Assembly: GCA_963930775.1 (NCBI GenBank) | Contig: OZ005703.1 | Span: 6,944,001 to 7,008,000, forward strand | Direction: 5' to 3' | Source: Cliona cf. orientalis | Taxonomy: Eukaryota; Porifera; Demospongiae; Clionaida; Clionaidae | Length of the DNA stretch: 64,000 bases | Shown here: one piece after another, positions 19,892 to 47,560 of the stretch | Layout: every line of letters begins with the position of its first letter | Position numbering within the stretch: the first letter of the stretch is position 1 | Notes under the pieces: generated by a model | Told to the model about the DNA's origin: nothing | The model's input: the letters and a program-made list of their open reading frames with translations, nothing else | The model's database searches: none | Made by a program: the position numbers and the translations under genes

Positions 19892-20925
19892 TCATATTGA
19901 TTCAACAAGAGCTTTGAATGTTTCAAATGTATCTGGTGTTTCATATAATTCGGAAAAAAATTTCTTTGGATTATAAACCATCTTTTTTTTCTTCCCCTGC
20001 AGCGTACTTATTGTAACCTCTCTTTTCATGTGTGATAAAATTTTCTTGATTAATTGGACGTCGACCTTACTAATTTCGACACCACCGTCACGTGCAAGCT
20101 GCATGAGAAGAGCTACAATTCCCCCGATAGCTGGGGCTGCATAAGAAGTTCCATTAACCTTTTGATACTTACTGTTGTCATTATCCACTGGAGCATATAC
20201 ATTTTCTCCAGGAGCAAACACGTCAATTTTACCTGGAGGATTGAGATCGGATTCTACAGATTTGTGATCACACTCATCTGATTCACACTTATCATACTCA
20301 TCACACTTCTTCAAGCTTAAGCCACCAACAGCAATCACTTGGTCAAGACGAGCGGGATGAGCAACGTCGGGAGCAAATAGACCATAGTTACCTATAGCAG
20401 CCACACAAATCACACCTTTACTAGCTAGATCATTGATCAGTTCTTCTCGTTTTGGATTTTCCTTTTCTTTGTAATGCCCAAATGACATAACAATCACCTG
20501 ACATTTCTTTTTATCGCTAAGATGTTCATCCTCGTAACTTTTTTTCAGATGTTCAAGTGCTCCAATGATGGCATCAGAATAGTATTTCTTCTCTTCAGAC
20601 ACCCTCTCAGACACACAACAAACATATATTTCGGCTTTTGGAGCATACTGTGCAACAATACCTGTCACCATGGTGCCATGTGCTTCTCGGTTAGTGCGCC
20701 AGTAGTCATCTCCATTACCATTATTGATAAAGTTCTTTCCACTTAGATGTATATGTTTTTCAGTAAAATCGTCGTGGTTTACATTGACACCAGAGTCAAG
20801 TACAGCTATTGTGATCCCTTCTCCATTGATTCCTTTTTTATGTGCCTCCTGAAGGTTCCATTTGGGAAAAATTCTAAAGTCGCTGAAAAGCTTTGCTTCT
20901 GGACATATAGAATCTGATGTATCAC
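19892..20925 (-). CDS. Subtilisin-like serine protease (S8) exon, unit 1, intact
   Basis: Large terminal exon with acceptor at 20925 (phase 1; first codons GDTSDSI) and stop at 19892. The S8 triad is complete: Asp in ITIAVLDSGVN, His in REAHGTMVTGIVA, Ser in NGTSYAAPAIGG, plus the oxyanion Asn in CVAAIGNYG. There is no signal peptide or I9-type propeptide, so it should be intracellular. The same exon type sits at 50754-51724, where it follows ZU5-gene exons in phase. Here the nearest phase-compatible upstream exon is 34327-34380, which would need a 13.4 kb intron through repeats. Alternatively it is a detached terminal exon or has its own promoter. The first in-frame ATG (20980) lies upstream of the acceptor, so unspliced translation is also possible. 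Confidence 0.85.
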
Positions 20926-21099
20926 CTAATAATATAATACAATCAAGACCCGTATTATGAAACATCAACAGGATTAGCAATTGCTAAAGACATAGTAATT
21001 TAGTATTTCAAATACACTTAATTACTAAGCCACATCCACAATTTTAGAATTGTGTACTCCTTAATTTAAACTCTCTTCTTGATTGAAATCCCACTGGCT

Positions 21100-21190
21100 A
21101 TACAGTTCATAGCCACCACGAAGCTCAAGAACGTCAGTTAGGATGTTTGACCTTGCAATGGATACAGTGACAAGTCAAAAAGACATCGGA
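21100..21190 (+). pseudogene. Relic of MTG1 terminal exon
   Basis: GTTTGACCTTGCAATGGATACAGTGACAAG-type sequence matches the end of MTG1 exon 11 (19139-19175) with substitutions. It marks a duplicated MTG1 3' end lying beyond the subtilase exon, the same order as at 50.46 kb in unit 2. Confidence 0.6.
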
Positions 21191-22189: not shown

Positions 22190-22440
22190 TAAACTAAATC
22201 AGGAGTACATTACAAGGAGTATGCAACATACACAGTAATAGCTAGTACAAACATCTCTTTCCAGACTTGACATCACAACCACTCTTGTATATACATGGGC
22301 CTGAATATCATTAGAGTTGCAACCATGGAGTTACATTCCTTATAGCCACAGCTGCAGCTAGTTACTATCAAACACTGATAGGCAGTCTACGCTAAGACCG
22401 CCTTAAGGTACCATTTAATTGCGTGGGCGTGAGCGTCAGG
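22190..22440 (+). repeat. Left arm of a long-range inverted repeat
   Basis: 22200-22440 (AAGGAGTATGCAACATACAC, AAACATCTCTTTCCAGA, CAGTCTACGCTAAGACC, TTAATTGCGTGGGCGTGAG) is found in reverse complement at 31002-31034 and 31920-32085. The two arms bracket the repeat array. Arms are diverged, so this looks like an old element or inverted duplication. Confidence 0.65.
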
Positions 22441-23230
22441 AATGGCTAATTCAATTAGCGAATCGTGAAGGGGCGTGGCCGAAGAGGCCATACGAGTGCT
22501 TTTGGTCGAAGGTGGGCGTGTCCAGAATCGGCCAGGGATGATTATGCGCGTGTAATTAGCGACCGGAAGTGGCCCCTGAAGAAAACACCGGTAATTGCCC
22601 ACTTCAAAGCAAGATCAAAGCATTCTTTCTTAACTATTAACCGCAACGACAAATTATACACTAAGTAGAAATTACACACTAAGTTACACACTAAGTAGAA
22701 AAAAAGAAAATATAATAATTCGTGGGGGAACTGGGAGCACCTGGGGAGATACTTTTTACATGGGCACGCAGAATGGGTCGAAACTAGAGATTTGACCCTG
22801 GGGAATTTTGATTCATGTCTTAGAATTAAAGTTACGGCGCAATGTTTTGAGTCCCGGTGTGCGTTATTTAGAAAATCGCTAGTCTAGTACATGCATAGGC
22901 TACCATGGAGCTGGTATTGTATCCAGAGACTTGCTGAATGGATGAGGAATCAGTCACAACAGTAACTCTCCCGTTTTTGCTGAGAGGTAGGTGGGGTAAT
23001 ACAGCTATAGTTTTTGTATGTGTGGATGTGTGGGAAAGTACATCTAGTTGAGAAACAAGTGACATAACTAAAATTGTTTTGTGGTTTCAGAGTCCCCTGG
23101 ACAATTTTTTTACAGTAATACTCGGGATGACTATAATAATATTATATTATTATACTGTAGGGTGTGAATATTATATACATGCATGTTTCTAATTATGTGG
23201 AACTTTTTGTGCTTAGTGTGCATGGTAGCT

Positions 23231-23300
23231 CCTTAGATGATTTCCAGCAAGCTCTAACTGCGCCTGCAGCGCAGTTAGAGCGGGTGGAAATCATCTAAGG
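23231..23300. repeat. Conserved hairpin, copy 1
   Basis: CCTTAGATGATTTCC ... GCTCTAACTGCGC, central TGCA, then the mirror GCGCAGTTAGAGC ... GGAAATCATCTAAGG. Near-perfect stem. Confidence 0.85.
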
Positions 23301-24671
23301 TACTTGGTATTATTACTATGGTATACCAATGCTAAATCGTATAGGCACTGTACACTGATTAAATTATTGTGGGCTTGGGTAGCTGTTTTGAACATGACTT
23401 GACTATGGATGCTCTACTCTACTGAAGAATGGTTTTAGTGACATTAGATGTTGTTACCATAGTAGTATATACCAAATGTACATAAAGTATTGCAGTGTAT
23501 GTATCTGCATGGTAAACAATCGATGTAAAGTAAGCCTAAGTGCATATTAATTTGTGTGAACCTATACAATGCAGGTACGTATACTTACGTGCCGCAGTTT
23601 TTTTTTCTGCTTAGTGTGCACGGTAGCTTGAAAAAAGCAAATTTAAATAAATAATCTAATTCATGGGGGGTTTGGGAGCACTTGGGGGGATAATTTTTAC
23701 ATGGGCACGCAGAATGGATCGAAACTAGAGATTTGACCCTGGGGAATTTTGATTCACGCCTTAGAATTAAAGTTACGGCCCTTTGAAGTTATCCCATATG
23801 TTTGTATAGGAAGCCATGCATTTGCAATGTTTTCCGCCCACGCGCGCACATCAACGTGACGACCATTACCCACTTGGGTCGAAATTGATGTACAGTACAG
23901 GCTGCCTGCTTGCATTGTATGGCTCTACTATGCATCCAGCTCAACTATGTGGTGGTTTTCGGACAATTTTTTTTTTCTGCTTAGTGTTCTGGTCGCCTTG
24001 AAATTACACACTAAGTAGAAAAAAAAAAAGATTTCCATTATTGGGACTCTGGGGAGCGGTTGGGACCGTAAGTTTTATATGGGCACGCAGAATGGCTCAA
24101 ATTATGAACTTTGATCGAGAGATTTTTTTTATTCACACCCTAAAATTAAAGTTATGGCTCTTTGAAGTTTGTATAGGAAGCCATTCACTTGCAATGTTTG
24201 CCAAAAAAATTTTACGGGCACGCGAAAAAAAATTTACGGGCGCGCGGCGTACGTTGACGACCCTTTACCGAACATTGTGCATATTGCTGTTTGGGTGCCT
24301 GCTTGCATTGTATGGCTCTACTATGCATCCAGCTCGACTGTGTGGTGGTTTTCGGACCATTTTTTTCTGCTTAGTGTATCCAGAGACTTGCTGAATCAGC
24401 CACAACAGTAACTGTCCCGTTTTTGCTGAAAGGTATGTGGGGGTAATAGAGCTATAATTCAAGTTTCATTTAATACGCTCTATTAGGAGCTAGATGGCCT
24501 TGTTTCCGATTGTATGGGCATCCAGCTCAACTATATGGTGGTTTCTGACAATTTTTTTACAGTAATACTCGGGATGACTATAATAATTATTATACTGTAG
24601 TGTGTGAATATTATATACATGCATGTTTCTAATTATGTGGCACTTTTATCTGCTTAGTGTGCATGGTAGCT

Positions 24672-24741
24672 CCTTAGATGATTTCCAACAAGCTCTAACT
24701 GCACCGCTGGCGCAGTTAGAGCGGGTGGAAATCATCTCAGG
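24672..24741. repeat. Conserved hairpin, copy 2
   Basis: Same palindrome as at 23231-23300 with a few changes (loop GCACCGCTGGCGC; right arm end CATCTCAGG). Confidence 0.8.
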
Positions 24742-25840
24742 TACTTGGTATTGTTACTATGGTATACCAATGCTAAATCGTACACGCACTGTACACTGAT
24801 AAAATTATTGTGGGCTAGGGTAGCTGTTTTGAACATGACTCGACTATGGATGCTCTACTGAAGAATGTTTTTAATGTTGTTACCATAGTAATATATACCA
24901 AATGCAGATAAAGTATTGCAGTGTATGTATCTATATGGTAACGATCAATATAAAATAAGCCTAAGTGCATATTAATTTGTGCGAACCTATACAATGCAGG
25001 TACGTATACTTATGTGCCGCAGTTTTTTTTTCTGCTTAGTGTGCACGGTAGCTTGTTAAACACTAAGTAGTTACACACTAAGTAGAAAAAAAGATACAAA
25101 ATTAATTCATGGAGGGATTGGGAGCACTTGGGAACGTAATTTTTACATGGGCACGCAGAATGGGTCAAAAAACGAGATTTGACATGAGAAAATTTTGATT
25201 CATGCCTTAGAATTAAAGTTACGGCCCTTTAAAGTTCACCCATGTGTTTGTATAGGGAAGCCATGTCTTTGCAATGTTTGAGTCCCGGTGTGCGTTATTT
25301 AGAAAATCGCTAGGCCAGTACATGCATAGGCTACCATCATGTACCATGCAGCTGGTATTGTATCCAGAGGCTTGCTGAATGGATGAAGAATCAACCACAA
25401 CAGGAGCTCCCCCGTTTTTGCTGAGAGGTAGGTGGCATACAGCAATAGTTTTACATTGTGTGTGCATGGATGTGTGGGAAAGTACATCGAGTTGAGAAAC
25501 ATAACTTTGTGCTTTTCCCCTAGCCTCTAAGTTGTGTGTGTGCTGTGGTGATTTTGAGTACTAGTAGGAAGTAACATATTGCAGCGGCCACTGGTACTGA
25601 ACCTCAACACTGATCATATACTCTTGAGTTTTCTAGGCTCTATTAGGAGCATAGACGGCCTTGTTTCCGATTGTATGGGCATCCAGCTCAACTATGTGGT
25701 GGTTTCTGGACAATTATTTTTTTACAGTAATACTCGGGATGACTATAATATTATTATACTGTAGCGTGTGAATATTATATACATGCATGTTTCTAATTAT
25801 GTGGCACTTTTTTCTGCTTAGTGTGCGGCATGGTACGGCT

Positions 25841-25910
25841 CCTTAGATGATTTCCAACAAGCTCTAACTGTGCTGCAGGCGCAGTTAGAGTGGGTGGAAA
25901 TCATCTAAGG
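25841..25910. repeat. Conserved hairpin, copy 3
   Basis: Same palindrome; stem tip TGTGCTGCAGGCGCA, right arm TGGGTGGAAATCATCTAAGG. Confidence 0.8.
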
Positions 25911-26659
25911 TAGCTACTTGGTATTGTTACTATGGTATACCAATGCTAAATCGTACAGGCACTGTACACTGATTAAATTATTGTGGGCTAGGGTAGCTGT
26001 TTTGAACATGATTTGACTATGGATGCTCTACTGAAGAATGGTTTTAGTGACATTAGATGTTGTTACCATAGTAATATATACCAAATGTACATAAAGTATT
26101 GCAGTGTATGTATCTGCATGGTAAATGATCAATATAAAGTAAGCCTAAGTGCATATTAATTTGTGCGAACCTATACAATGCAGGTACGTATACTTATGTG
26201 CCGCAGTTTTTTTTCTGCTTAGTGTGCACGGTAGCTTGTTACACACTAAGTAGAAAAAAAGATACAAAATTAATTCATGGAGGGATTGGGAGCACTTGGG
26301 AATGTAATTTTAACATGGGCACGCAGAATGGGTCAAAAAACGAGATTTGACATGAGAAAATTTTGATTCATGCCTTAGAATTAAAGTTACGGCCCTTTAA
26401 AGTTCACCCATATGTTTGTATAGGGAAGCCATGTCTTTGCAATGTTTAGAGTCCCGGTGTGCGTTATTTAGAAAATCGCTAGTCCAGTACATGCATAGAC
26501 TACCATGGAGCTGGTATTGTATCCAGAGACTTGCTGAATGGATGAAGAATCAGCCACAACAGCAACTCCCGTTTTTGCTGAGAGGTAGGTAGGTGGGGTA
26601 ATACAGCTATAGTTTTACATTATGTATGTGTGGATGTGTGGGAAAGTACATTTAGTTGA

Positions 26660-26937
26660 CAGTGGCGTAAGAAGATATTTTTGAACAGGGGGGCTGCAAA
26701 TAAAATTGCGCGCAAAGCGCGCAAAATTTTTTTGGATCACACGATACGCCTTCAAACCATGCCCATTATTATGCTAATTTGGCTGTAAAGTAGCTAGACT
26801 TTACATCATAAATCTGAAGATGTCAAGGCCTAGTAGAATAAATATCTTCCTAGATTTAGGCCCACTTGGTTGACAAGATGGGGGGGGGGGGGGGGGGGCT
26901 ATAGCCCCCCCAGCCCCCCCTGCTTCTTACGCCAGTG
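26660..26937. mobile_element. hAT-like non-autonomous element, 5-bp TSD, inserted in an array unit
   Basis: Starts CAGTGGCGTAAGAAG and ends CTTCTTACGCCAGTG; flanked by GTTGA on both sides (26655-26659, 26938-26942). Sister array units carry the empty site (AGTTGAGAAAC at about 23047), proving the insertion and the 5-bp duplication. Contains a poly-G tract and GCGCGCAAAGCGCGC. Confidence 0.85.
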
Positions 26938-27356
26938 GTTGAGAAACATTACTGAGGCTTATTTTGTGCTTTTCCCCTAGCCTTGTGTGTGTGTTGTGGT
27001 GATCTTGTTACAAAGTAGCATGTTGCAGGGGCCATACTGAACCTCTTCCCCTAGCCTTGTGTGTGCTGTGGTGATCTTGAGTACTAGTAGGAAGTATCGT
27101 ATTGCAGCAGCCACTGGTACTGAACCTCCTCAACACTGATCATATACATGTACTCTGAGGCTCTATTAGGAGCATAGACGGCCTTGTTTCCGATTGTACA
27201 GGCATCCAGCTCAACTATGTGGTGGTTTCTGGACAATTTTTTTTACAGTAATACTCAGGATGACTATAATATTATTATACTTTAATGTGTGAATATTATA
27301 TACATGCATGTTTCTAATTATGTGGCACTTTTATCTGCTTAGTGTGCATGGTAGCT

Positions 27357-27426
27357 CCTTAGATGATTTCCAACAAGCTCTAACTGCGCCGCAGGTGCAG
27401 TTAGAGCGGGTGGAAATCATCTAAGG
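27357..27426. repeat. Conserved hairpin, copy 4
   Basis: Same palindrome; tip TGCGCCGCAGGTGCA, right arm CGGGTGGAAATCATCTAAGG. Confidence 0.8.
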
Positions 27427-27959
27427 TACGTGTACTTGGTATTGTTACTATGGTATACCAATGCTAAATCGTACAGGCACTGTACACTGATTAAATTATT
27501 GTGGGCTAGGGTAGCTGTTTTGAAAATGACTTGACTATGGATGCTCTACTGAAGAATGGTTTTAGTGACATTAGATGTTGTTACCATAGTATAGTAATAT
27601 ATACCAAATGTACATAAAGTATTGCAGTGTATGTATCTACATGGTAAACGATCAATATAAAATAAGCCTAAGTGTATATTAATTTGTGTGGACCTATACA
27701 ATGCAGGTATGTATACTTATGTGCCGCAGTTTTTTTTTTCTGCTTAGTGTGCACGGTAGCTTGTTACACCATAAGATAAAAGAATTTCCGTATGAGTAAT
27801 GTAATGTAATGTAAATAATTAACTTATCTAGCCGTGGGAAGGGTTTTATGAGATAAAATTTTATATACATGGACAGAATGAAAAATCTTTAAGAATGTTG
27901 TGGGCAGAATTTTTAGTTTTACTTTCATATCTGAGTAAACGCTAGATTTAGTGGTTTTA

Positions 27960-28310
27960 ACGCGCGGGGGAAGTCCCGTATTTCACGTACGTCCATAGAG
28001 CCTGTACAAACTCGATCGCAGGCTATGACGTGTTCGCCCAATCGCGCATACCGCGTACTACTTAATCTGGACAAACGAGCATACCTGCGGGTTTATTCGG
28101 GATCGCGCGAAGGTAACCTTTGCCTTGGCTAATGAACGTGAGGTACTAAAAATACTCAAGGACGTCCGAGCGTCGATCCGAGAGCGGCACTACTAGTTAC
28201 AGGCAGGAGTTGGTACTATGTTTAGAGTTAGCTAGAACTGCCTATCTTCACTAAGTGGAGTCCAGCGAAGCTTCACTCACCCTGATCGAAAGGAGGTAAA
28301 TAAAATTGTG
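27960..28310 (+). other. CpG-rich block of unknown role
   Basis: CG dinucleotides are dense (CGCGCGGGGG, TCGCGCATACCGCG, GATCGCGCGAAGG) against an AT-rich background, followed by a GT donor-like AAAGGAGGTAAATA at about 28290. It could be a promoter with a non-coding first exon or a foreign repeat. No protein is visible. Confidence 0.3.
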
Positions 28311-29855
28311 TTTGTTGTATGAGCTACATGCGTTTGGCTATGACCAAGCCATGATGGTGGGCCCGGAATTGATCGTATGGTGAATGAACCAGCCCTAAAC
28401 CTGAAAATCTTTATTTCTATATAGTCTAGTGTACTATGACAAGGCTAGCCTTTGAAATCGTGCTAACTATAATTATAGCTATAGGCCCACATATAGTCTC
28501 TGCATGCCATGCTAGTGTATTTAATTTTGTATTCCTGTCTGATATTTACACTGTACTCACCTAATCTGCACACACGGCAACACTCTATACAGGGATTGAG
28601 AGATTGTGACGACTCTGAAACTGTATATTGAGGTGTCCATCTAGCTAGGTAGCTCTATAACTTCTTTTATTATAGCAGTATATTAATTTGTGTACATTTC
28701 TGATGTTATAATAATTAAAGCTACTTATTATAGCTATTACCATGTCAATGATTGTGCAAAGGGATGCTGTCTCACACGATTATAAAATTAGCAGAATCTG
28801 CTATAAATTAGATTAATTTACATTTTAACATAATATCATCAAGGAGTGTATATTATAGTCTCAACCAGTCATATCAACATAAAACTGGATTTGGTGTAAC
28901 AGCTAATTAAACTCTGAATTGATAAGTTCAAACCACTAAGGTGCACGTACTTTGCATTATAGGTAGGTAGTACTAAAGAATTTTAACTGCTGCAATTTAG
29001 CTATACCTAAAATATATCTTCAGCATTTCGATCGTATTGGTAAGTCTATGAGTCGTTAATTCTAATTCCGATAGGTACCTACTTGAGTTGTTACTATAAT
29101 GATAATAATATTATTATTATTTTGATATTAGGAAAGTAGAAACAACTTCCAACTTCATCAGCTTACAGGGATCAAGGATATCAATCTAGTTACATTGGAT
29201 AATACGGTGGGTCCTGGACATTAACTAAACTATTGCTATTATTGTATATACATGTGGGTGCCACTGCAACTGCTGGATATGGTGTATACTCAGGTGCACG
29301 GTATGACAACTGACTGCAAGTGATAAAGGAGTGTCAGGTGGTCATTCACAAGGTGCTACAGTAGCTTCAGCCGGATAGTACAATTATTATGCTTTTGGAA
29401 TTTCAGGTGGCCATCAACAGCTGCAGTATGTAGCATATCAGTTAATGTTTATAATACTCTGCCTTATAATTAAAATGATTATGTGCGAGCAACTTAATTG
29501 AGATTTGACATATTATTATGTATGTACACACAATAATATCATACATACTCATCAGCGGGAAATGGTATGCAACAGTACTAGTGATTCATCAATTGCAAGG
29601 CTTTGCACATACTAGTACAGGTCCATATAAAATATAATTGCAACTTGTGTGCACATAATATTTATTGTTGAACTAGACTTTGTATACGGTAGCTGATAAG
29701 TGATCACTTGTGTGTGCCACACAATAGTAAGATTTGCCGCCGCTTTTGAATAATAATGCTTCATAAAACTTGTATGGTTACATTCTATGGTCCTCCATAC
29801 AAATGACATGGTATTTCTTAATTAAAGGTTGTTGTAATTCTTTTATCTTATGGTG
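28311..29855. other. Non-coding stretch
   Basis: AT-rich. An exon-like segment (acceptor near 29131, donor near 29210) is open but matches no family. Nothing else supported. Confidence 0.3.
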
Positions 29856-29859
29856 TGGT

Positions 29860-30285
29860 TTAGCTTGAAAAAAAAAAAAGATTTAATGTAAATAATGTTT
29901 GAGACTCGGGGAAGCTATTCACGACAAACTATTCATATGTGCACGCAGAATGGATCGTACCTGGAAATTTCTTGGAAGCGGAATTTTGATTCACACCTTA
30001 GAATTAAAGTTACGGTCCTTTAAAGTTTCCCATATGTTTGTATAGGGAAGCCATACGTTTGCAATGTTTTCCGCCCACGCGCTACGTGAAAAACGGGGAA
30101 TCCCCGTTAGGCGCGAGCACACAAACGTGACGACCTTTACCAACTTTGGTCAAAATTGGAGTATAGGGTGCCTGCTTGCATTGTATGGCTCTGCTAAGCA
30201 TCCAGCTCAACTATATGGTGGTTTTTGGACAATTTTTTTCTGCTTAGTGTTCAGGTCGCCTTGAAAAAAAAAAAAAAAAAAAAAA
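29860..30285 (+). repeat. Detached copy of the array repeat (short variant)
   Basis: Shares GTGCACGCAGAATGGATCG, GTTTGTATAGGGAAGCCAT, TTGTATGGCTCTGC and TTTTTTCTGCTTAGTGTTCAGG with the short unit at 23665-24000; ends in a poly-A run at 30264-30286. Confidence 0.7.
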
Positions 30286-30299
30286 AGCCTAATTAGGCC

Positions 30300-31001
30300 T
30301 AATTAAGCATGTGGGCGTGTTCCTGGCACTGTGTGGAGTGTGTGCGTGTGCGTTAATGCAGGTTTTATTGCTTCCGATTGGGCGTGGCTTCACGGGCCAG
30401 TGCTTGGATATCGGGGCCTGGGACTTGGCCGCGGCGATAGGTGGGCGTATCCCGGATGCGGTGGTGACCTTTGCACCCGGCCAGGAGGCTTCGGGGGCGT
30501 GGCAGGAGGTCAAAGGTGAGGCCATGTCAGTTAATGAGGCACTGTACGCCGGTGCGATCGAGGGGACTGTACCGCTGGACGGAGGCTGACGATGGTTTGA
30601 AGCGGATGTGGTTGCGATGACGTGTTGTTACCCCACCCACACAGGAAATGAGGTGAGCTCTTGTGTGGGCGGTGTGGCAGAACGGCCTCCGAGTGTTTGT
30701 GTGTGTTTTGGCCTTGAGGAAGCTGTGTGTTTTAATTGGGATTGATTGTGGGCTTCCGGTGGACATCCGGTGGCCAGTTGGCACGTGATTGAGAATGATG
30801 GTCCTTGAGGCGCAGGGTGGTGCTGTTTTGGGCGTGGCCTGGCCCCTCCCTTCCGGCTCGGCTTCCGGTCCATGGAGGATATTAAATGAACACTTCCGGC
30901 TCTAGCAGCCACACCCCTGAGACCTGTGCAATTAAAAGGGCGTGGTTACACAACATGCACCTCACTAATGACTTTGATGTGGTTTAGGTGTCATATCCCC
31001 C
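30300..31001. other. GC-rich stretch without a supported gene
   Basis: Composition shifts to GC-rich with GGGCGTGG words. A 92-codon + ORF (30311-30589) and overlapping minus ORFs occur, but no homology or splice context supports coding. It may be the interior of the inverted-repeat element. Confidence 0.35.
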
Positions 31002-34326: not shown

Positions 34327-37300
34327 CTTCTCGTGGTTTAAAGGGAGCAGCTGTAGATGGCTGTTTTGTAACACCTACATCTGTATAAATAGAGGATAAT
34401 GTTTATACACAACATCACAATGCAACTACATGTATTGTAAATCATGTATTGTAAATCACGAATATTTCGTTGTCAAAGTATTTTTAGACAGCCTGGCTAA
34501 TGCAAAAATTAAATGAGTGAAAAAATATTAATTAATGATAATGCAGTATAGGGTCATTTATCTAAGGCTCACCCCAAACGTGCCCTGCATGAGGGTGAGT
34601 TTGCATGCATGGGCAACAATACCATTGGGACTAAGCCAAGTATCTACTTTAGGCCATGCAAAGTAGATTGTCTTTCTCGTACATGCACGCCCATGTGTAC
34701 TACTTTTGATATTGAGAAATACCATATTTATAGGCACAGGGTCATCATTTAAATAAGTCGTTTTGGCACTAAACACAAGTAAAACATCATATTTGGTTTT
34801 TTTCGCTCTGACAGCAATATCAAAATCAACCACCCCTGCGTGTACTTTACAAATCTCTATATATAGGACGAGAAACAGAATATTTAGTTGTGAAGCCTTA
34901 TGGAATAGTGAGGTGTCCACATTTCATGGGTTAAATATATAGCTAGAATATGCACTACAATCCATGTAAGCATTATATTAGCGATTACAGGGTGTTGGGT
35001 TACACTGTAAACTCTCATTGCAGATGGACAGAGAGACAGATACACAAACCATAGTTAGTATAGCTGCATGTACCTGAAAGAAGAGTAACCTGCGTATTAA
35101 GACCATATTTTTCTTTCACATTGGGAAACATCACATTTATCCTCGGCTCAGGTTTTTCTCTTTCATTTGCAGGAGTAATTGATACTTTAGGTGGATATAT
35201 CCCATCACGATGTTCCTCCTCCATTTCCTCATAATTCTTTCCATCTCTCCAAAAGTCAATTTTTTCCTCATAAATCTAATTCAAAAACAGGATCACAGTG
35301 CTTATGAAGTTTCTGTGTGCTATATATCTATACACACCTTTCCTGGGTAAGGATTCAAATTTACATCATTCTCAGAATCACACTGAACTTCCACGTGATC
35401 CTGGCCATCGGATAGAGTAAAACGCTTCCATTCCACTTTATCCTTATCCAATCGTTGCGTTAATGCCTACATACATGACATTGTACAGGGCTCTAGCTCG
35501 ACTACTTTAATTTTCATTTGTACTGTCAAAATACCAGACTACAATCTCCCTATAACAAAGAGCGCGAGCAGCCTCAAACTTGTAGGGGGGTTAACATTTT
35601 GTGCCTCAAACTCAATTTCACAGAAAATTCCACATGCTGGGTTTCCCATGGGTACATAATTCAGTCATTACTCAGTTCATGCTTAACCTTTATTGTGCAC
35701 TTACCTTTTTACAAGTCTCCATGTAAAAAGTTGCGTAAATATCGAGTCGAGAAGGACCTTTCACAATACCAATGCAGTATCCCATGTGTTTCGCCTTGGC
35801 TTTGAGTTTGGTTGCATTACTTGGACATTTCAGGCACATGAAGCAGAAGTGATTTGTCTCAAGAGTTCCATAACCTTTGCCTCCACCAGCATAGTAAAAT
35901 GACTTACCCTCAATTGGCTGAAACTTGTACACTCTTTCTCCACTGGCATCAGTGATACAGTTATGGCCTGCTTTTGCAAATCCGACTCCAAGGGAAGCAA
36001 GCTCGTCCATGGATAAGTCAGGGAGGATGTGCGGGAGGGTCACCTTCATAGGCTTATCAAGACCATGTCGGGTATTCTCTCCTCGCAAGCACAGTAACAA
36101 GATGGGAGAGATCAGCCGATAATTCTTATCAAATTTGAATGGGCCATACAGGCAGACACCAATTTCCAGTCGTCCAGTCCTTCCATCGGGGATTGCAAGA
36201 GGGGGGATTTGGATTCTGATCTCATCAAAGCCAACAAAATCAGCACCAGACGAATCAAACTCAAGACACTGTGGTGGTATGATGAACGGAATCCGTTCAT
36301 CTTTAGAAGCCATCATTCCTTCTAGATCACCTGAAGATACATAATGATACTATATTATTATTGAAGCCTCACTAAATGGTCACATTCAGTGCCAGAAACT
36401 GCTGGCTGCCATTGTAATGAAGCACTCTAGTGCAAAACCCTCAGCGCAATAGCGATAGCTAGTCTGCATGTTGCAAATTCGCAAGCTGTCATGTAAGCCA
36501 AGCAACAGTGTACGGATTGCATGGTATTGCGTAATAGTACTATGTGCATGCCAGATCAGCAGATCTAGTATAGTACAAAGTAAAGCCAAGAAGCATAGTT
36601 GACAGCCTACTGAGATCGGTGAAGAGTCAGTCATGACAAATTTAAGAACTATCGCTAGAACTACACACTACTAATCTTGAAATGAAGCCATTGCTGTCTC
36701 TTTCATCAATCGAGAGCTCATCAAGAAGTGAAGAAGGCCATGGTGGTCAGCAAATGTCACCAGAACTTTTGAACGAAGCGTTTTCAATGAAATCCACACA
36801 ATTCCGACCTTGAAAATGCCGTAAACAGCCTACTGACACCTTGTTTGCATCATATAACCAGGTATGTAGCAGCTGGCGTGGTAACACACACACACACACA
36901 CACACACACAAAACGACTACCGAACCCCTCGCGCATGCGCCGAGGGTTAATGAAACACTACCACCTGTGTACATAGAGCGGATAATGGCCATACCTAAAC
37001 CAAGTAACATCCATGCACCACCCACATGCATCCCTAGCTCTCCCAGGAGATAAATTCTCTCACTGAATTTTATTAGCATGACTTAGTGTGAGAGAATGTT
37101 GATGATATACAAATGCTAAAATTCACCCCTCACTATCACGTGACACAATGGCAACGTATTCCATTCAGAAGAGCACATACATGTACATGTAGCTTCCAGT
37201 CAGAGATAGCTGACAGACACCACTCTCAACCCTTTCACTTTCCTTCAAACACATGCACGCATATATACACACTCATAGGTAGCAAATAGTTCAATGTTGA

Positions 37301-37643
37301 ACGCACATATGGCCTGTGATCAGAAACGTACAGGCTCTATGGATGTATATGGAAAAAGGGTCTTTCCCTTGCACTCCAACCACATTTACTCGGATATCAA
37401 AGCTAAATTAGAAATCTAAAGCTAGAATCTGAACTATATGTTACGTATTATAATATTATATGTATATAAATTAAATGATTATCACTACCTTTTCGGGACA
37501 CATTTCCTGATATTCCTAAGTCTGTGTCATTGCTACTTTGATTCTGTAGAGCAGTGGGCAATAAGCAGTTATATAAGTTAATAATTACTATATTCACTGC
37601 TTACTTTATGCCTTAAATGATGCTCATCCTTTAATTTCTTTAT
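34327..37643 (-). CDS. Coiled-coil/ZU5 middle exons, unit 1 (continuation of the helicase gene)
   Basis: Exons 37605-37643 (IKKLKDEHHLRHK), 37489-37543 (NQSSNDTDLGISGN), 35705-36330 (ZU5), 35338-35466, 35074-35275 and 34327-34380. Phases join to exon 37842-38695 of the helicase gene upstream and to an S8 exon start downstream. The ZU5 domain shows IRIQIPPLAIPDGRTG, LISPILLLCLRG, KPMKVTLPH and ends TLETNHFCFMCL. The HFC sits where PIDD, NLRP1 and UNC5-type ZU5 domains have HFS, so Cys-based self-cleavage is conceivable (inference). The later exons (VEWKRFTLSDGQDHVEVQC; KIDFWRDGKNYEEM, RINVMFPNVKEKYG) form a linker of unrecognised fold, paralogous to 54937-55325. Whether transcription starts at 47.5 kb or locally (MMASKDERIP) cannot be decided here. 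Confidence 0.8.
34558..34856 (-). CDS. Possible alternative terminal exon
   Basis: Acceptor at 34856 is phase 1 and accepts the donor at 35074. It reads EICKVHAGVVDFDIAV onward for about 98 residues to a stop at 34558. The only visible donor near its end leaves the wrong phase for 34380, so it works best as an alternative last exon that would yield a protein ending without the protease. No counterpart is seen in unit 2. Unrecognised sequence. Confidence 0.45.
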
Positions 37644-37841
37644 CTGCAAGGACTATCAAGAATAGAGAATCATTATTATAGCCACTTCTTGACCCCAAAA
37701 CCGATGAACAAAGCGTTTACAGTTATAATACACGTGTTTGGAATGCCATAAGGAACCTTCTAACACTGCACTTTGGACTCGCGAGGTATGTAGCAGTAAC
37801 AGACAGACAGACACACACAGAATGACTGGATGACCACCTAC

Positions 37842-40800
37842 CGGCCTTGATTGCCATGCCTCTGATCGAGCTACAGGTTGTTGAGCTGACTTTGGTGAAC
37901 TCGGTGACTGTTTCTGTAGTTGTTGAGCACTCCCGGGAATCTGCTTTAGTAGTTGCCCACCACCACCACCCCCACTAGTAGCTACCACCCTCTGTGATCT
38001 CAGTTGTATCTTCTGTGGATTTTTACACTGAGCTTGCCATTGGATAGTTGGAGATGGTGGAGTTGTAGTATTGTGCTGTTGTGGAGGTTGTCTCTTGACA
38101 GGAGGGTGGCCACCAGTAACAGTTGGTTGAGGTAGTGCTTCACGCTGCTTAGGAGGTGGTCTTGTTGTGGGTGGAGCTTGTGCAGCTTTGTTGTACGTAG
38201 GAATTGCCCTAGTAGGAGGTGGATCTTTTATGGGTGTGGCTGGGCGTGGAGCTTGAGGAGCACCAGCTGTTTGCGGGAGTGGTGGGAACTCATCTGCATT
38301 CAAGAACACGTTTCTGTCAGCTGGTGCTGGCATCATTGGCTCGCTAGCATAATCTCGTGACAGTCGCTCCTTGACTATCTCACGAATCTTGGACAGAATC
38401 TTCTTCTGCTTCGTTCTTGATAGCTGCGAATCACTGAATGAAATGGTCTTATTCCTTAGGCAGTAGTCCAGGTAGTTGCTCCAGCATTTCCCCTTCTCTC
38501 TATACCTCATGATCATGATTTTCTCCATCTCCAGGAGGAGAAATGGGTTCCCGACACTCACTATCAGTGACTGGGCTCGAGTGATGGCCGTGTTGAAGAT
38601 GAATCGATCACAGAAGCTCTTTGTCGGGTTGGTAATGTATCCATCGTCTGTCATAGGCTCTGATGTACTCAACAGTAAAAATCTGAATTCCCTTCCTGTA
38701 TCACACATACAATGTATATGTACATGTACAGTGTACATGTAATTATAAGATAGTGGTTGATAGTTATTATATGCAAATATTCAAGGGGTATTCTCCTTCA
38801 GCGATATATTATAGTCAAATTACCAACCGGCTCCAGGGGGTTTCTGGAAATTGGTCAGCCATCCCAGAAGGCACTAGCAATGCTATCAAAGGCAGCCATA
38901 TTATGGTCACAGCTAGCTACATGAGCTATGAGCAAGATGATTGCATGCACATACTAGTGTGACGACCTTTACCATAAAAGCATAGTCAGTGCAGAATAGA
39001 CTCCGAAGAAGCAGCTCATAATGGAACAAAGGTGCTAAGTTAGTTGCTGATTACCATGCAACCGTGAATGAGAAGAACATTCATGCTATAGAATGTACTC
39101 AGGTAGCCAGCTAGCTATACATGTAGTTATATAGGAGATCACAAAATCAGCAGTCCTGGAATGTATAATATTACATGTATAAATTTTTCTGGGGAGTACC
39201 CCCAGACCACCTAACTTTGGAGAATAAGGTTTTAGTTGTCAGAAACCAGTCAATAATTTTTCAGGAGCTGCCCATGCCCAAGCCTACAGGACCCACAGTG
39301 CCTGCATGCTTAAATCTCGGTACAATATAAGATGTTTCTTACCCTGTATATCGTATGTAGGCAGTCTCCTTATGGACCTGAGTCTGGAGTAGCCCCTTCG
39401 TCTATCATTAATTAACTTGCTAATCATAGTCAACTAGAGGGAGGAATATATATTATTACAATCATAATCTGTAGGTTACCATGCGTACAGGTAGCACATG
39501 CACATTCCTCAAGCAAAGTTCAAATGATGGAGTGCATAGTTTGTGCAGGGCCTGTGGCCACATCAAAGCATTTTCAGTCCCATATCAAGGACAAATTTAT
39601 ACTGAAGGTTGCATATGTGCAGGATGAATTAATGGCTAACCAGTATGCTGTAAATTTGTGGCATAAACCATGCTCATGGATTGTGCATCTGATGCCTATA
39701 AGAAGCTATATACATGTGTACAAGCATGAACAGGATTTCTATACATACCTGGCTTCTACTAGGGCTCATGATGCAGGCGTTGAATAGGTCCCTGTCCCCC
39801 CACTCCCTATAGGGCCAATTCTCACTCAGCTCCTTCAGCTTCTCCAAGATCACGATGGCTTCCTCCTCGTTTGTGTTCCTGTTTGTTTCCTCGACCTTCT
39901 CACTGTAGCTGGAGCACACAAACACGAAGGAGGTGGAATACTCTGGGTGGAGCTTGGGCGGGGCTTTGTCGTCGGGAGGCTTCAGTGGTGTTTCGTAGAA
40001 GAGGTTGCCCGATAGCTCAAGAATGTCGGGGTGGCAGCGGTAGTTGGTGACTAACGTGACTTGATGGTTGCTGGCTACATCCCCCTGCATGCCTTGATAG
40101 TGGAGCAGCAATCTCTCCAGGAGGGATTTGTCCAGACCATTGTCTCGAGCCTTGGAACCAAGAACTAGCATCGCTGGACCAACCTATGACAATGTAGATC
40201 ATGAGTGCTATACATGTACAATGTACATTGTACATTATGCATATTTGTTGGTAGTTGCCTAGCAACCAAAGTTTTTATAGGCAATTTGCTGGCTATGGGA
40301 AGGGGGTGGGTCATCATAAAGTAGGCCAATGATGAACAGAGATCAACTACCAACAAAATAGTTATCAGACAGTAATTGGGGTGCATTCGACCATGCATCT
40401 CATGCACCCCAATTATTATCAGATAGCTATTATGCCAATAATATGCACAGAGTGATTTCGCTTACCGTATGGCGGGTAATTTTCGTGGGGTGCTAATTTT
40501 CGTTATTTTCGTGGTTGATTTGGCAGCACGAAATTTTCCCACCCACGAAAATTAATGCCTACGGTGATATGGCACTATGCGAGTCCATGATGATGGGCGT
40601 GGCCACAAACATCTTGGCAGCGCGGCCAACACTTTCCAGTTTTAGCAAGCAATAGTAGCCACTGTCATCTAGCTAATAGTGTCTTCGACACTAATATTCT
40701 TCTATTTCATGCCTTTTGTCCAAGTCTCTGTAGGTATGGCTTAGTAACAAAGAAGATCGTGAGCGCGTGTATCAATTACATCATCACTTACGCAGCAGTG

Positions 40801-43800
40801 CCACGCCCCTAGACTTGTTGCTATCACGAAATTTAAAATCACAAAAATTAATTTTGAGGGCCTTTTCGGACTTTCCACGAAAATTAGACCCCACGAAAAT
40901 TACCCGCCATACGGTATATGTTATTGTAACATAATAATAATATTATACAATGATGTATGGTTTGTACCTAATAGTTCAGTATTCATACTACGCACACAAC
41001 AAGCTACAATTGTTAATGCATGTAATCATGTACATGTACAGTAAGCACATGCGTACTATCAAAACACATTGCTGTACACTACTACCTGTTATGTTAACTT
41101 AGCTACGCATGTACATACACTGTGTACATGTAGGCATACCAATAAGTGGATGTCATAGTGCACAAGAGGGTCTAAGCTACATAACCCGTTTCCCAACAAT
41201 GAATGTTTACAATACTGTACATAGTTCTCAAGGCTATGCAGCTACATGTACATGTAAGTGACTCTGCCTTTTGCAAGGACTACATGTAGGTTCGCCTGAG
41301 CAGGCGATGGGATGGTTACCCCTTAGATTTAGGATTATTATATTATATAGTAGAAGATAAGAAGTACCTGATGATGGTCTCCAGCGATGACAATCTTAGT
41401 GTTACTGCTAGCAAGGCAGAGTGGTGCAACGGCCTCTGGCTCCCTCATCTGAGCTCCTTCATCGATAAGGATGTGAGTGAAGAAGTCTCGCTGCAAGAAA
41501 TTAGCAAGACGAGGTGCGGTGAGGCAGGTGGTGACAATGAGCGTTCGAGGGTGTGGGTGGCGAAGGAGTTGATGCTGGATACTCTGGACATTTCTGTAGT
41601 ACCTTTTAAGCTTTGGAGTGCGAAAGCTGTAGTCTCGGAGCAAGAAAGCATCGGCAAAGCCAACATTTTTAGTCTGTTGTAAGTTTAGGAAGGTTTCAAG
41701 AAAGTTGTCGGCGGACACCCTCTGTTGGGTGCAGACTAAGACTCGGACAAAGGAGGAGGTACGTTGCTCGAAAAGGAACTGCACAGCCACAGCTAGGACT
41801 CGGGTCTTACCTGTTCCGAAGGGTCCAGCTATGAGGACAGGAGGACCACTGGAAGGAGACAGGGTAATGGTTTTTAAAGCCTTTAGCTGATCGGGAGAGC
41901 AAAGCTTCTCGTAAGATTTATACATGGGGTGGGTAACACCCCTGTGTAGGTTAGGCTAGTGGCACTGAAAATTCTGGTAGTGGGGTGTCAGCCGCTGAAT
42001 GATATCCGGATGAAGTCTGTCTAAAGACCGCTTAAGATTATTAAAATAAGAGTGCTTTAGTTTAAAGCTGACGTGAACATTAAAGTCGCTCGGACCGGGT
42101 TTAACTGGGCACTCGGAATGGTTTAATTTAGTCACGGCATCTCGATCGAATCCTATATAAAGCTTCTCCTCTACGTGAGAGTAATTCTCCGAGAGGATAT
42201 CAGCCGTGCATATCGTATTCCCGTCGTAGGTGAGGGTCACGCCCTCTTTATCCTGTGCTGCCTGCACAGCGTAAGCAATCTGGTCACCATTTAGGGCAAT
42301 GTAGCCGTATCGAACGTGTCGGAAGTCTGACTCCCGAGTCATCCAGTGTGGTCGCTTGAGACCCGACTGATGAAGGACTAACTGATAATCTCCATTACAC
42401 CTGCAGGGAAAGTATATGCACAATACGAATTAGAGGGAGTAGTACATGACATTGTACATATACATGTATAAGGATATCAATTGCTAGGAGATCAGCATGT
42501 ACACTGTAATCTCTAAGTTCTAAGGATGGAAAATCAACCTCATGACAAAAGCCATGAGCATGCATGCATGCATGCATACATGTACATGTACATGTGTATT
42601 ATAATATGGTATTATAGCACATAATTATTATGTACATGTTATAATACAACAACATGCAACTAGGAATTTTTATTCAGATTACATTTTTTTACATTAAGGG
42701 CATGTCATTTAGCCACCATAAGGTAATACACATTACACATTGTTTACCTGTTTTCCAGGATGTTCTTGTGTGTGCTCTCTTCGCATTTAAGTAGCTCCTG
42801 AAATTTATTTTTATAGTTGCTAGCAGATAGCAACTCATAGATAATATCTCCTGGCTTATAGTGGCCATAGCTCTTTGCCTGAACGACAGGACTGGCCAGT
42901 GAAGACTCTGACACCTGCTGCTTCTCAAGATCACTGTGAGCCAGAGGCCTGAATGACAGAGAATGCTGCTAGTTTATGTGCACACAAAATTAATACAATA
43001 TTACGCTCTCTGTCACTCTCTCTCTCTCTCTCTCACATACACACACACACACACACACACACATACATGTATACACACATTAACTCCTCTCTCTCCCAGT
43101 ACAGTATATACAAGTTTCATATGATGATATGCATGTGTTTATCACATGAAGATGTACACATACCATGATAGCCACTTATCATCACAATATATTATTTAAT
43201 ATGTGCATGCATGTACATGTACACGTAACACATACCTGGAAGAGGGTAGGTGTGGGGAGGGAGTGATTTGCTGCTGAGCTGGCTGTGATGTCTCAGTCTG
43301 CGTACTAAGCTGGTGACCTTGGGACGGGGGGTTGGGAGAGGGAGCTACAGCAGCCATGGAGTACTGTGGTTGAAGCTGTGAGCTGCCCAAGGGGAAGCCC
43401 CTTGGGGCGGTGGTGGGACTACCAAGAGAGGGCCAGGGATCCTCAGGTAATGATGGTGTCTGTGTGTCACAGAGAGAGAGAGTGGAAGGGGAGGGAGGGA
43501 GGGAGGGGGAGGGAGAGAGGGAGAAAAGATAAGTTTGAGTATGCATTTGTACACAGCTTATATCCTCATGGAGAGCAAAAGTACATTCCTGAACTACACA
43601 TACAATGTGGATGCTCAACAATGACACCACTATCAGTCATCTTCAAACTTTGATAACAATTATATAATATGTGTTTACTCAAGGCCGAAATACGGATGTC
43701 CATGCCGCAGTAATTCATTGGGTTATAATATTCATTAATGACTGGAATCATTCCTATTTTTCAAATAAGCAATTAATAAAGGTACAATGTATAAACAACC

Positions 43801-46800
43801 AACACAAATACACAATCATGAAAGTTTAAAAAAAGCCGGTCTTTAGTTTAATCTACCCTCAGTACATGAATCTAGAACATTTTAGCAGTTAGATGTACAA
43901 GAGGATAGTTTTGGCCCAGCTAAGTTGATTTAGCAGAGGTGTCCATTCAGTGTCATATAGCACACCCAATAGTAACTAGTAAGAATTGCATGTAGCTTAC
44001 CTGTGCAGTAGCACTGGTGGGTGCCGACTGTACCCTGGAGACGCTGGGGTGCTGACCGCCCAGACCAGGTAGCAAATTAGCCAATGGAGAGGAGAGAAAC
44101 TCATTGCTGATCTGGGATTCTGGGATACCGGAATGAGTTGGGTAGCGCTGCCTTCGTGAACCAATAGGAGGGTGGGCATGGCTATGAGTGTGGCTGTGGG
44201 TGTGGCTATGCCACGTCTGTGAATGATCCGTATTCAGAGGATGACCCAGCACAGAAGGACGAGCCTGTATCTACAAGAGATAATCTTGTGTAAACATGGT
44301 TAGTTGCATCAGCATTTTTATGTAAGGGAATTTTTTTTATGTGCTTTATCATGCTTGCCAGAGTATAATATTATGTTTGTAGTGTCCAATATTAAACTCT
44401 CTCACTCTCTCTCCCTTACCCTCTTTCTATATAATTATGTGCATACATACATGTACATTGTACCCTCAATCAGTGGATAGTGAGACCATACATTTACCTG
44501 ATAGTGTTGATGGCCGTGGCTGTAAACTGGCTGTGGCTGCTGGTGGGCACTGTGGGAGACAGCTGCGATGTCATAGAGTGGATCTGGTGTGGGAATGGCT
44601 GTCGCTCCAAGTGGTCCACTAGTGGGGTGGGCATGGTGGTACTGGGTGCCTTCGTAGAATGCCGAGTCATCATTTTGGTGGTAGGAAGGAGCTGTGTACG
44701 ACAGCTGAGTAACTGCAGTGTCCTGTCGACCAATTTGAGAGTAGAGTGGGGCTGGATAATAATGGGGAAAATACATCATACACTAGTACGTCGTCTTCAT
44801 GAATTATCTACAATACCGTAGATCGGGAAATTTTTACCGTTAAAAATTTTTCGCCAGTTGCTTAGGTGGCGAAAATTAAACGCGCGAAATATTTGAGTAA
44901 TGTATGACGACCTATACCAAGTTCAGCCTGGCGGCAAAAATTAGACTACACGAAAAATTTACAAGTGAAATATTTTACCAGCGAAAATATCCTGATCTAC
45001 GGTATATACCCTTTTACTGAATTACACGCATCTTTCCTTAAAAATTGGGCAAGGCTCAAGCGTACATATTATTATGCAAGTAATTATTATCATGTGGAAC
45101 AAAGTATGCATGCAGTGTATCTTATTAATAGCTTGGGACATTGATTTTGGTACTGTGTTTATTGTATGTCACACTGTGAGATTGTTTGCTCTAATTAGAG
45201 GTTTGTAGTACTAAATAGCTGCTATAATGTGTCACCATCAAACACATGAATGTACTTACCACCAATTCTCTCATCAAAGCTGACCCTCCTGTCCGGTGGG
45301 CCAGTAGCAGCTGTCATGGCCGCTGACTGCTGTCTGAGCAGTGCTTCATTCCAGGCCTCCCTCTCCTCCATGCTGTGAGCAAACGTACACTTGTCCCCAG
45401 CACACCTCCAGCCAAAGTCACACATGATGAATCTCTTTCCCCTCCGAGGTACACTCACACGGGGCATCGGCCGAATATTGACTCGATTGTCCGGTGGCTT
45501 GGGAACAGATAAAGATCCAAGGAAGGTATCATTTGACAGCTCCATCGAGCTCCTGACCCTCTCCATTCGCCTGGAGTCACGGTTCCATCGCACGGGGACC
45601 CTTGGTGCCTTTGCATGAGCGCCTGGCTTGAAGCAGCCGACATCGATGAGGTCTCTTATCGATGGATTCGCTGACAAGCACACGTTACACACGTAGTCTG
45701 CAGTGATTGAAGCCTGTTGTCTGATATACTCTGATGAAGAGACTTCAGGTTCAATATCAAATGCTCCACCTACTTGCGTTTTCTCCAAGGAAGACTCCCT
45801 CCCTTCTTGGACAGCCTGTAACGAGTGGTTGAGAAATTAGTGAGAGATGGATGAAATCTAGGGGAAGGGAGGACTGAGGGGAAGAGAGAGAGGGAAGGCA
45901 GGAGGGAGGGAGGAGAGGGAGAGAGATCAACCCTCCTATCATGCACATCTAGTGCTTACCTTGTCATATGCGACGACAAGTCCAGAGTCCTGCTCAGAAA
46001 CACTGATAGGCTGACTGATATTATACTCTGATTCAGGTTCGATATCAAATGCTCCACATAGTTGCATTTTCTCCAAGGAAGACTCCTTCTCTTCTTGGAC
46101 AGCCTGTAACGAGTGGTTGAGAAATTAGTGAGAGATGGATGAAATCTAGGGGAAGGGAGGACTGAGGGGAAAAGAGAGAGGGAGGGCAGAAGGGAGGGAG
46201 GGAGGGAGAGAGAGATCAACCTTCCTATCATGCACATCTAGTGCTTACCTTGTCATGTGCGACGACCAGTCCAGAGTGGTCTAGCCCCTGTTCAGAAGGC
46301 CGTCTGATATACGTGTACTCTTCAGGTTTGATACGAAATGGTCCACATACTAGCGTTGGCTCCAAGGAAGACTCCTTCTCTTCTTGGCCCTGTAACAAGT
46401 GGTTGAGAAATCAGTGAGAGATGGATGAAATCTAGGGGAAGGAAGGACTGAGGGGAAGAGAGAGAGGGAGGGCAGAAGGGAGGGAGGGAGGGAGATCAAG
46501 AGAGATCAACCTCAGATTTTATGTATGAATGGATACTCACTTGAACTTGGATAGCACTAGAACCAGTTCTATTCTCGGAGGGGATGTGTCGTTCCTACAG
46601 CATAAGCTCACAATAATCATGTATGTCAGCTTAGAGAAAACAGGACAGGATGCAATAAATGCACATCTATTACACTAAGTGCTTACTTTGTCACTGCCTT
46701 GGAAAAGATGGCCTGGGATGACCTGCTGCTTAGGCCACGCCATGACAGCATGGTACTGCCCACGCTCAGTAGCACTGACAGGCCTAATGATGACTTGGTC

Positions 46801-47560
46801 CGAGGACTGTCGAGGTAGCTGAGATTCCGATGAAAAGACACGAACTGGTTTGAAAAATGGTCCACCACTCTCCTCTGGCCCCAGAGAAGATGGGGTTACA
46901 ACTTCCTCTTCTTGGACAGCCTATATGGGATCGTTAAAAAATCAGTGAGAGGGGGATGAAATGTGGGAGGAAGGGGGAGGGAGGGAGAAGAGAGAGAGAA
47001 CATACTTTGTGTGGGACGGCCTGTACTTTTATCTGATCAGGCGCATACACTTCCTGTGGCTGTGGATCAACCTTTCGCTCATCACTGATGTTGAGAGGCA
47101 ATAAACCTATTAATATTTAACATTGAAACATTAGCAGTGATCCATCACTATTATCAGTATTACTTTGGCAAATGCTTTCAACCAGCTCAACTTCATCACG
47201 AATATAGAGAGCTTCTAGAAGTTTCTCTAGCGTGGCTTCTTCGTTTAATATTCTTACTCCATGCAAATACCGCCTGCCTCAACTGCTGCTCTTGCTTCTT
47301 GGCGCTGCGTGGATCACGGCACTCGCCTCGTCTTCTGTCAACCCGAGGCTATCGCAGAATGGGCGGGTCTGGATCGTATCTCTGGCTGCGCATTTGGGAA
47401 TGATCCAGTCCATTTCTGGCTGGAGCGCTGGGTCTCCGTAGACATCGTGACAGACGGGCCTCCTTAGGTAGTCCTGTCTGATACCTTGGATACAGTTACT
47501 GAACGCTATCGACTGAAAGGCCATCTTTGTAAATTGGGGGGAGCCCGAGACACGGAACAT
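37842..47560 (-). CDS. DEATH - CCCH zinc finger - SF1 (HELZ/UPF1-like) helicase protein
   Basis: Exons: 47164-47560, 47006-47106, 46687-46920, 46541-46594, 46249-46389, 45960-46103, 45260-45815, 44498-44751, 44001-44270, 43236-43459, 42748-42948, 41368-42400, 39749-40183, 39343-39433 and 37842-38695. Exon 1 is DEATH-like (FCDSLGLTEDEASAVI ... EEATLEKLLEALY) but needs two frame changes near 47300 and 47235. Acidic repeat exons follow, then CNVC...C...H and a CCCH finger (CDFGWRCAGDKCTFAH), a low-complexity His/Gln/Pro region, and the helicase: Walker A GPFGTGKT, ILIDEGAQ, AGDHHQ, NYRCHPDI, NTAITRAQ. A Pro/Gln-rich tail carries FLNADEFPPLP, reminiscent of PAM2. HELZ-type helicases bind RNA. An in-frame TAG (41956-41958) lies between HYQNFQCH and YKSYEKLCS. 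Phase continues into 37643. Confidence 0.87.
40465..40914. mobile_element. MITE with near-perfect TIRs in helicase-gene intron
   Basis: Ends CCGTATGGCGGGTAATTTTC and its mirror GAAAATTACCCGCCATACGG, flanked by TA. Interior holds more CGAAAATT words. Non-coding. Confidence 0.85.
44816..45002. mobile_element. MITE (CCGTAGATC ends) in helicase-gene intron
   Basis: CCGTAGATCGGGAAATTTTT on the left, TATCCTGATCTACGG on the right, TA flanks. Same style as 40465-40914 with different interior. Confidence 0.75.
45815..46920 (-). repeat. Tandemly duplicated exon-intron units in the helicase gene
   Basis: Exons starting at 46920, 46389, 46103 and 45815 open with the same AVQEE-type or GQEEKESSLE motif, and their introns share CTGTAACGAGTGGTTGAGAA and a GGGGAAGGGAGGACTGAGGG tract. 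Period is about 290 bp for the last three. Exon lengths are multiples of three, so copies insert in frame. A related exon is at 61928-62104. Confidence 0.85.

Follow-up and report, generated by a model that had tools for sequence, protein, structure and literature searches.

The cleavage motif of PIDD and NLRP1 carries the residues HFS. In the parts of the literature drawn on here, a review describes ZU5 autopeptidases, reports expanded ZU5 proteins of sponges with a possible role in defence, and lists ZU5 and peptidase S8 alike as domains of bacterial toxin systems (PMC3482391). Marine animals have mosaic immune proteins that contain helicases, Death-like domains and FIIND, and the TRADD-N proteins of marine invertebrates show mosaic immune-type architectures in which a Mov10 helicase, a DDX60 helicase or FIIND is a fusion partner (PMC8195603). 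The domains annotated in the fungal NLRs, intracellular receptors of an immune type, include S8 (PMC4986451); early animals are mentioned as having ZU5 together with NACHT (PMC12909245); and a paper on sponge regeneration names a helz transcript (PMC13058987). The locus described here lies in a stretch of 64,000 nucleotides (the window) from the sponge Cliona cf. orientalis, positions 6,944,001 to 7,008,000 of contig OZ005703.1 (assembly GCA_963930775.1). It holds two tandem paralogous genes on the minus strand, unit 1 (ending at 19892) and unit 2 (62104-50754), in both of which a ZU5-like exon is followed by an S8 protease exon. They are best read as tandem ZU5-subtilase genes, probably of the innate-immunity type. 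A helicase gene lies directly upstream of unit 1 and may be joined to it. Coordinates are positions in the window, and features are on the minus strand unless stated otherwise.

The exon models were built from homology, splice sites and the comparison of the two tandem copies. Unit 2 comprises ten phase-matched exons in the order acidic, three coil, one of 55 nucleotides, ZU5-like, three linker and S8, and runs without a stop into an S8 exon with full triad motifs; its start was not found within the window. The chain from 46920 to 19892 comprises 19 exons, 12 of the helicase gene (46920-37842) and 7 added by unit 1 (37643-19892), and all 18 junctions are phase-compatible; phase agreement is weak evidence here, the exons having been picked partly by phase. 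The start of the helicase gene was not found in the exon modelling. The fused frame has 2192 codons and, besides the terminal stop, one internal stop, a TAG in a helicase exon, which is the sole stop within the two modelled chains; all other exons are open. A first scan, confined to a single minus frame, had detected AAA_12 alone.

The subtilase of the first-pass annotation is borne out in both units. The S8 exon of unit 1 (19892-20925) ends in a stop, and its triad motifs are intact, as are those of the unit 2 exon (50754-51724). Both match PF00082 far above the cut-off of 21.8 bits (107.2 and 94.3 bits; E=1.2e-30 and 1.1e-26), and the Asp, His and Ser motifs VLDS, HGTM and GTS are present in each. 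PADLOC returned 'subtilase' (1.7e-20 and 3.4e-19) together with weak IetS matches, and the subtilase and helicase matches in NCBIfam were all under the curated cut-offs. The closest solved relative is an intracellular serine protease (7y6m, 8.8e-19), and the S8 domain is for this reason taken as a putative intracellular effector.

The ZU5-like exons, at 35705-36330 in unit 1 and 55908-56512 in unit 2, both contain an HFC motif. The domain is called ZU5-like because its score for PF00791 is below the Pfam cut-off: the unit 2 exon alone reaches 20.1 bits where 21 are required (E=0.00076), and the unit 1 exon alone 12.3 bits (E=0.21), both matches covering the same stretch of the profile. In the spliced proteins the match is E=0.0042 for unit 2 and absent for unit 1. 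What stands of the earlier ZU5 assignment is thus a borderline match. A profile search of the PDB with the ZU5-like exon matched no ZU5 structure, a two-sequence AlphaFold model of the exons gave a predicted local distance difference test score (pLDDT) of 28.7, too low for a fold, and searches for relatives of the exon in viral_contigs and genome_contigs gave 80 and 203 pattern matches, none of them confirmed. The position of HFC where PIDD and NLRP1 have HFS suggests, by analogy, self-cleavage via a cysteine.

Between the ZU5-like and S8 exons lie three linker exons, at 35466-35338, 35275-35074 and 34327-34380 in unit 1 and at 55325-55191, 55132-54937 and 52356-52303 in unit 2; the third of unit 1 has 54 nucleotides and phase 1-1. 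As estimated by a simple method from two sequences, nonsynonymous (dN) and synonymous (dS) divergence between the units is 0.166 and 0.333 for the ZU5 exons and 0.219 and 0.338 for the S8 exons, from which both appear to evolve under constraint. In the linkers (125 codons) dN is 0.452 and dS 0.265, dN being the larger in 98% of 2000 bootstraps (Fisher p=0.044). Such fast-changing linkers would fit a host-defence protein.

The phase-1 donor at 34327, which had been read as leading to an S8 exon, matches the phase-1 S8 acceptor at 20925. Because it is seen in two paralogous copies, the link between the ZU5-like domain and S8 has good support in the exon models. Each unit also holds a decayed S8 copy. 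The relic of unit 1 (34061-33949 and 32883-32561), which lies in the intron between the last linker exon and the intact S8 exon, lacks the HGT motif and has stops in its frame; the second copy of unit 2 (49030-49959) has no AG where the acceptor is expected, and its frame breaks. An array of repeats with about 68-91% mutual identity occupies 22500-30300, inside the 13.4-kb intron of unit 1.

The helicase gene begins, as modelled, with acidic exon 1 (46687-46920, phase 0-0), followed by two duplicated acidic exons (46389-46249 and 46103-45960, phase 0-0) and an exon with a fourth acidic repeat and a CCCH-like zinc finger (45260-45815). Over 45260-46920 the acidic exons are tandemly duplicated along with their intron ends. 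Four exons of mostly low complexity (44751-44498, 44270-44001, 43459-43236 and 42948-42748) connect the finger to the helicase core, which consists of an exon with GPFGTGKT and DEGA motifs, recognised by eye (41368-42400), two further helicase exons (40183-39749 and 39433-39343) and a last exon with a Pro/Gln-rich tail (37842-38695). The Pro-rich tail includes FPPLP, which we take to be a resemblance to HELZ. Pfam searches of the spliced translation gave, for the part after the TAG, AAA_12 at 1.4e-19 and AAA_11 at 1.1e-17, and the best solved match is UPF1 (8.9e-17); by profile and solved relatives the protein is a UPF1-like superfamily 1 (SF1) helicase, in agreement with the first-pass annotation. 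No HELZ chain is among the 17 matches of the PDB search. The CCCH domain of that annotation is retained as a CCCH-like finger, the best Pfam matches, Nab2-zf4 (0.039) and zf-CCCH (0.17), all being under the cut-off.

The TAG (41958-41956) is in frame and is the only stop among the 344 codons of the exon 42400-41368. A tiny intron excising it was considered and rejected, as it would be far shorter than any modelled intron (the shortest has 58 bases), and the sites around the TAG offer no plausible intron. With its helicase frame interrupted in this way, unit 1 is one of three things: an allele that was disabled recently, an error of the assembly, or a transcript with an internally started product.

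Whether the helicase gene and unit 1 are one gene or two turns on the junction between them. The last helicase exon ends at the donor CCG|gtaggt (37842, phase 0), whose score of 3.37 is the best of three donors above 1 in that exon, and which has the right phase. Donors of this strength number 33 in the 64 kb, about 0.5 per kb on this strand, and one in the tail is unremarkable. Next come a coil exon of 39 nucleotides (37605-37643, phase 0-0), which begins 198 bases past the donor, and an exon of 55 nucleotides (37489-37543, phase 0-1), both with counterparts in unit 2. These two exons are 77% and 82% identical in DNA between the units, compared with 52-62% in their flanks. The step from the helicase tail into the 39-nucleotide exon, phase 0 to 0, is a free test with a chance success of 1/3. 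Without splicing, the helicase would reach a stop at 37658-37656, 12 bases short of the next shared exon. The open stretch after the tail donor has a coding potential of -0.05 per codon, compared with 0.04 in the last 180 bases of the tail and a background of -0.29 (standard deviation 0.14), and is not separable from the tail. A mobile-element origin of this stretch was rejected, the matches being mostly TG-repeat-like and weak (best E 0.003). A crude, home-made path score with assumed splice frequencies came to 32.3 for the join, or 35.5 with the 39-nucleotide exon skipped, compared with 26.9 for a split with a new first exon and 27.4 for a split with a start inside the ZU5 exon.

Unit 2 provides a further comparison. 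Its first exon (61928-62104, phase 0-0) is acidic and of the helicase-gene type, and is followed by coil exons at 61455-61372, 61083-61000 and 60911-60873 and by the 55-nucleotide exon at 60435-60381. When the DNA of this exon and the preceding intron end was compared with each of four helicase-gene exons, the scores of 43, 53, 59 and 62 lay above 300 of 300 shuffles in every case (shuffle maxima 33, 23, 30 and 26). In protein, the comparison with the exon at 46920 scored 52, the maximum in 1000 shuffles being 45. On this basis unit 2 probably begins like the helicase gene, and the earlier claim that a helicase-gene-type exon stands upstream of its coil, ZU5 and S8 exons is probably right for 62104-61928; the unit shows no helicase as such in a tblastn search at E up to 1.

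The join of the helicase to ZU5-S8 is favoured because intergenic space is absent, the donor matches in phase, two small exons are shared, and unit 2 starts with a helicase-type exon. That the helicase and the ZU5-S8 exons of unit 1 form a single transcription unit has, on these exon models, about an even chance of being correct. Of the single gene that had been proposed, the ZU5-like-S8 part is thus supported by two copies, and the helicase part is the preferred reading.

Several points weigh against it. The lead of the join in path score is just 5 to 8 units, and the score prefers to skip the 39-nucleotide exon; the 39- and 55-nucleotide exons together (31 codons, dN 0.232, dS 0.268) show no clear protein constraint. 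In unit 2, most of the DNA match of the acidic exon falls in the intron end, which is rich in pyrimidines, and the control consisted of simple base shuffles; in protein the exon is at chance with the other three helicase-gene exons. Translated searches (tblastn) at E up to 1 and at 1e-3 did not recover the acidic exon match, and at E up to 1 no helicase sequence was found in 48-64 kb. A coil-like stretch near 61238 was excluded from unit 2 for want of a clean exon end. Splice sites scoring below 0 are found at the acceptors 44270, 60911, 60435 and 55132 and at the donors 61000 and 54937. The intron from 34327 to 20925 spans 13,401 bases, compared with 1,184 for the next longest of unit 1 and 3,868 for the longest of unit 2, and the phase-compatible, weak acceptor of the S8 relic at 34061 (-0.59) would, if used, end the protein without a protease. 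The in-frame TAG belongs here as well.

The best surviving alternative, possible and appreciably less probable than the join, is that a HELZ-like helicase gene has as its separate neighbour a ZU5-S8 gene, the promoter of which lies in the helicase 3' region. The protein of the ZU5-S8 gene would start in an unseen first exon or at an ATG kept in both ZU5 exons (36313 and 56495), which could begin a separate protein, and the phase match would be the chance outcome of one in three. A stand-alone helicase would be an ordinary gene, the split models score nearly as high on the crude path measure, and ATTAAA (37635) and AATAAA (37074) lie between the tail and the ZU5 exon in a region where such signals occur at 1.3 per kb. 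Against this stand the lack of intergenic space, the small exons upstream of ZU5 that are common to both units and entered in phase 0, and the helicase-type exon directly upstream of the unit 2 coil exons.

The condition of the 5' part raises another alternative. A Death-like exon starting at 47560 had been proposed as the first of the phase-compatible chain, a claim that fails because of frame breaks, a TGA at 47281-47279 and the lack of any GT site scoring above -0.01; compatibility holds from 46920. In the broken Death-like segment (47120-47560), as followed by three-frame translation, the Death-like residues switch from frame 0 to 2 and back to 0, and the frame from the ATG at 47560 runs into the TGA. 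The best of the 14 GT sites before it, at 47485 (-0.01), would if used drop most of the Death-like exon. The top PDB matches are two p75NTR death domains, which are not significant (E=0.73 and 0.8). Pfam DEATH matched neither the three pieces nor a composite with X at the breaks, for which only DUF4606 (0.07) and Dredd_N (0.11) were returned. With disabling lesions in both the Death-like and helicase parts as assembled, and with a helicase TAG that the first reading of the chain had not seen, a working DEATH-CCCH-helicase-ZU5-S8 protein is not upheld, and a functional helicase-ZU5-S8 protein is, from the modelled exons, unlikely.

Unit 1 could accordingly be a decaying chimera, an accidental fusion by deletion between the helicase and ZU5 genes whose product is unused. 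The helicase TAG, the TGA and two frame breaks of the Death-like segment, the broken S8 relic and the long intron would all agree with decay; this explanation is nevertheless improbable, as the helicase motifs look intact by eye with one stop in 1479 modelled codons, and the ZU5 and S8 exons of unit 1 are open. That the lesions are assembly errors and a full fused protein with the Death-like domain is made is very improbable: the Death-like sequence is recognisable on either side of the frame breaks and the other exons of both chains are free of stops, but the TAG keeps the frame and so is not an indel, and the Death-like exon has no good donor to the next exon.

The explanation we prefer, which as a whole stands at roughly even probability, is that each of the two tandem paralogs encodes a protein with a coiled coil, a ZU5-like domain, linkers that change fast and an S8 protease of the subtilisin type, and that a UPF1/HELZ-like helicase gene has been joined to the ZU5-S8 gene of unit 1, its tail exon splicing in frame into the coil exon, with no room between the two for a separate 3' end and a promoter. 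The N-terminal part would assemble or would sense a danger signal, and an attached helicase would add the sensing of RNA or DNA. The ZU5-like domain, which carries HFC, may cut itself, like PIDD and NLRP1, and the cut would free or activate the subtilisin, the presumed effector. It is doubtful that a single chain, made by fusion within a tandem array, combines a sensor of the RNA-helicase kind with a ZU5-like switch that cuts itself and with a subtilisin as effector; under such a fusion the sister copy would, with the same reserve, keep the switch and the protease behind a different N-terminus.

A home-made gene finder placed the C-terminal half of the helicase, ZU5 and S8 in one gene. Its parse was not trusted: it used a tail donor at 37961 and an S8 acceptor at 20898 instead of the modelled sites, omitted the two small exons as well as the one at 39433, divided the helicase at the TAG and fused the decayed S8 copy of unit 2 to helicase exons.

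Unit 1 is flanked by two copies, 91% identical, at 18653-19231 and 48371-48952, which may be marks of the tandem duplication. Each has a plus-strand open reading frame (ORF), which we take to be MTG1-like; one of the two was run against Pfam and gave no match. Elsewhere in the window, two tandem rhodopsin-like receptor ORFs lie at 8565-9833 and 10151-11332 (minus strand; 7tm_1, 2.9e-16 and 1.4e-19). ORFs similar by eye are present on both strands, at 3-782 and 2230-2892 (minus) and at 6815-7550 and 12189-12896 (plus); two of them, 6-782 and 12192-12893, were run against Pfam without a significant match. A GIY-YIG domain on the plus strand (57812-58129, 1.1e-05) is perhaps a piece of a retroelement, and an ORF at 63391-63621 is Death-like by eye, with no match to any family. 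The receptor ORFs, the GIY-YIG piece and the multi-exon genes all indicate an animal genome.

Should the join be real, a single gene would contain the parts of an immune-type pathway for sensing, switching and cutting, which in vertebrates are distributed among several proteins, and the two neighbouring copies would illustrate the origin of such fusions. Leaving the helicase aside, no precedent was found for an animal-type gene in which S8 stands behind a ZU5-like domain: among the literature matches listed no description of it appeared, and none of them, supplements apart, names a helicase, ZU5 and S8 in one protein.

Each of the described systems shares a part of this arrangement. HELZ/UPF1-like SF1 helicases share the SF1 profile match, a possible CCCH-like finger and the Pro-rich tail; the gene here differs in its in-frame stop, its repeated acidic exons and the ZU5-S8 exons joined to it in phase. 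Bacillus-type intracellular subtilisins resemble the S8 domain, as its best solved match indicates, whereas the latter sits in a multi-exon, animal-type gene. Fungal NLRs with S8 differ in that no NACHT or NB-ARC is among the Pfam matches here. TRADD-N is likewise absent from these matches, and the combination of ZU5, S8 and helicase does not occur in the portion consulted of the text on TRADD-N proteins (PMC8195603). The lineage-specifically expanded ZU5 proteins of sponges share a ZU5-type domain and the proposed role in defence, and the immune role suggested here is consistent with the published remark on them; the part of the main text that describes them gives no S8 or helicase partner (PMC3482391). 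The PIDD, NLRP1-CARD8 FIIND and UNC5 families are alike in having a ZU5-like domain in a multidomain protein with possible autocleavage, and where those proteins carry a Death or CARD domain, the sponge genes have a C-terminal S8 protease.

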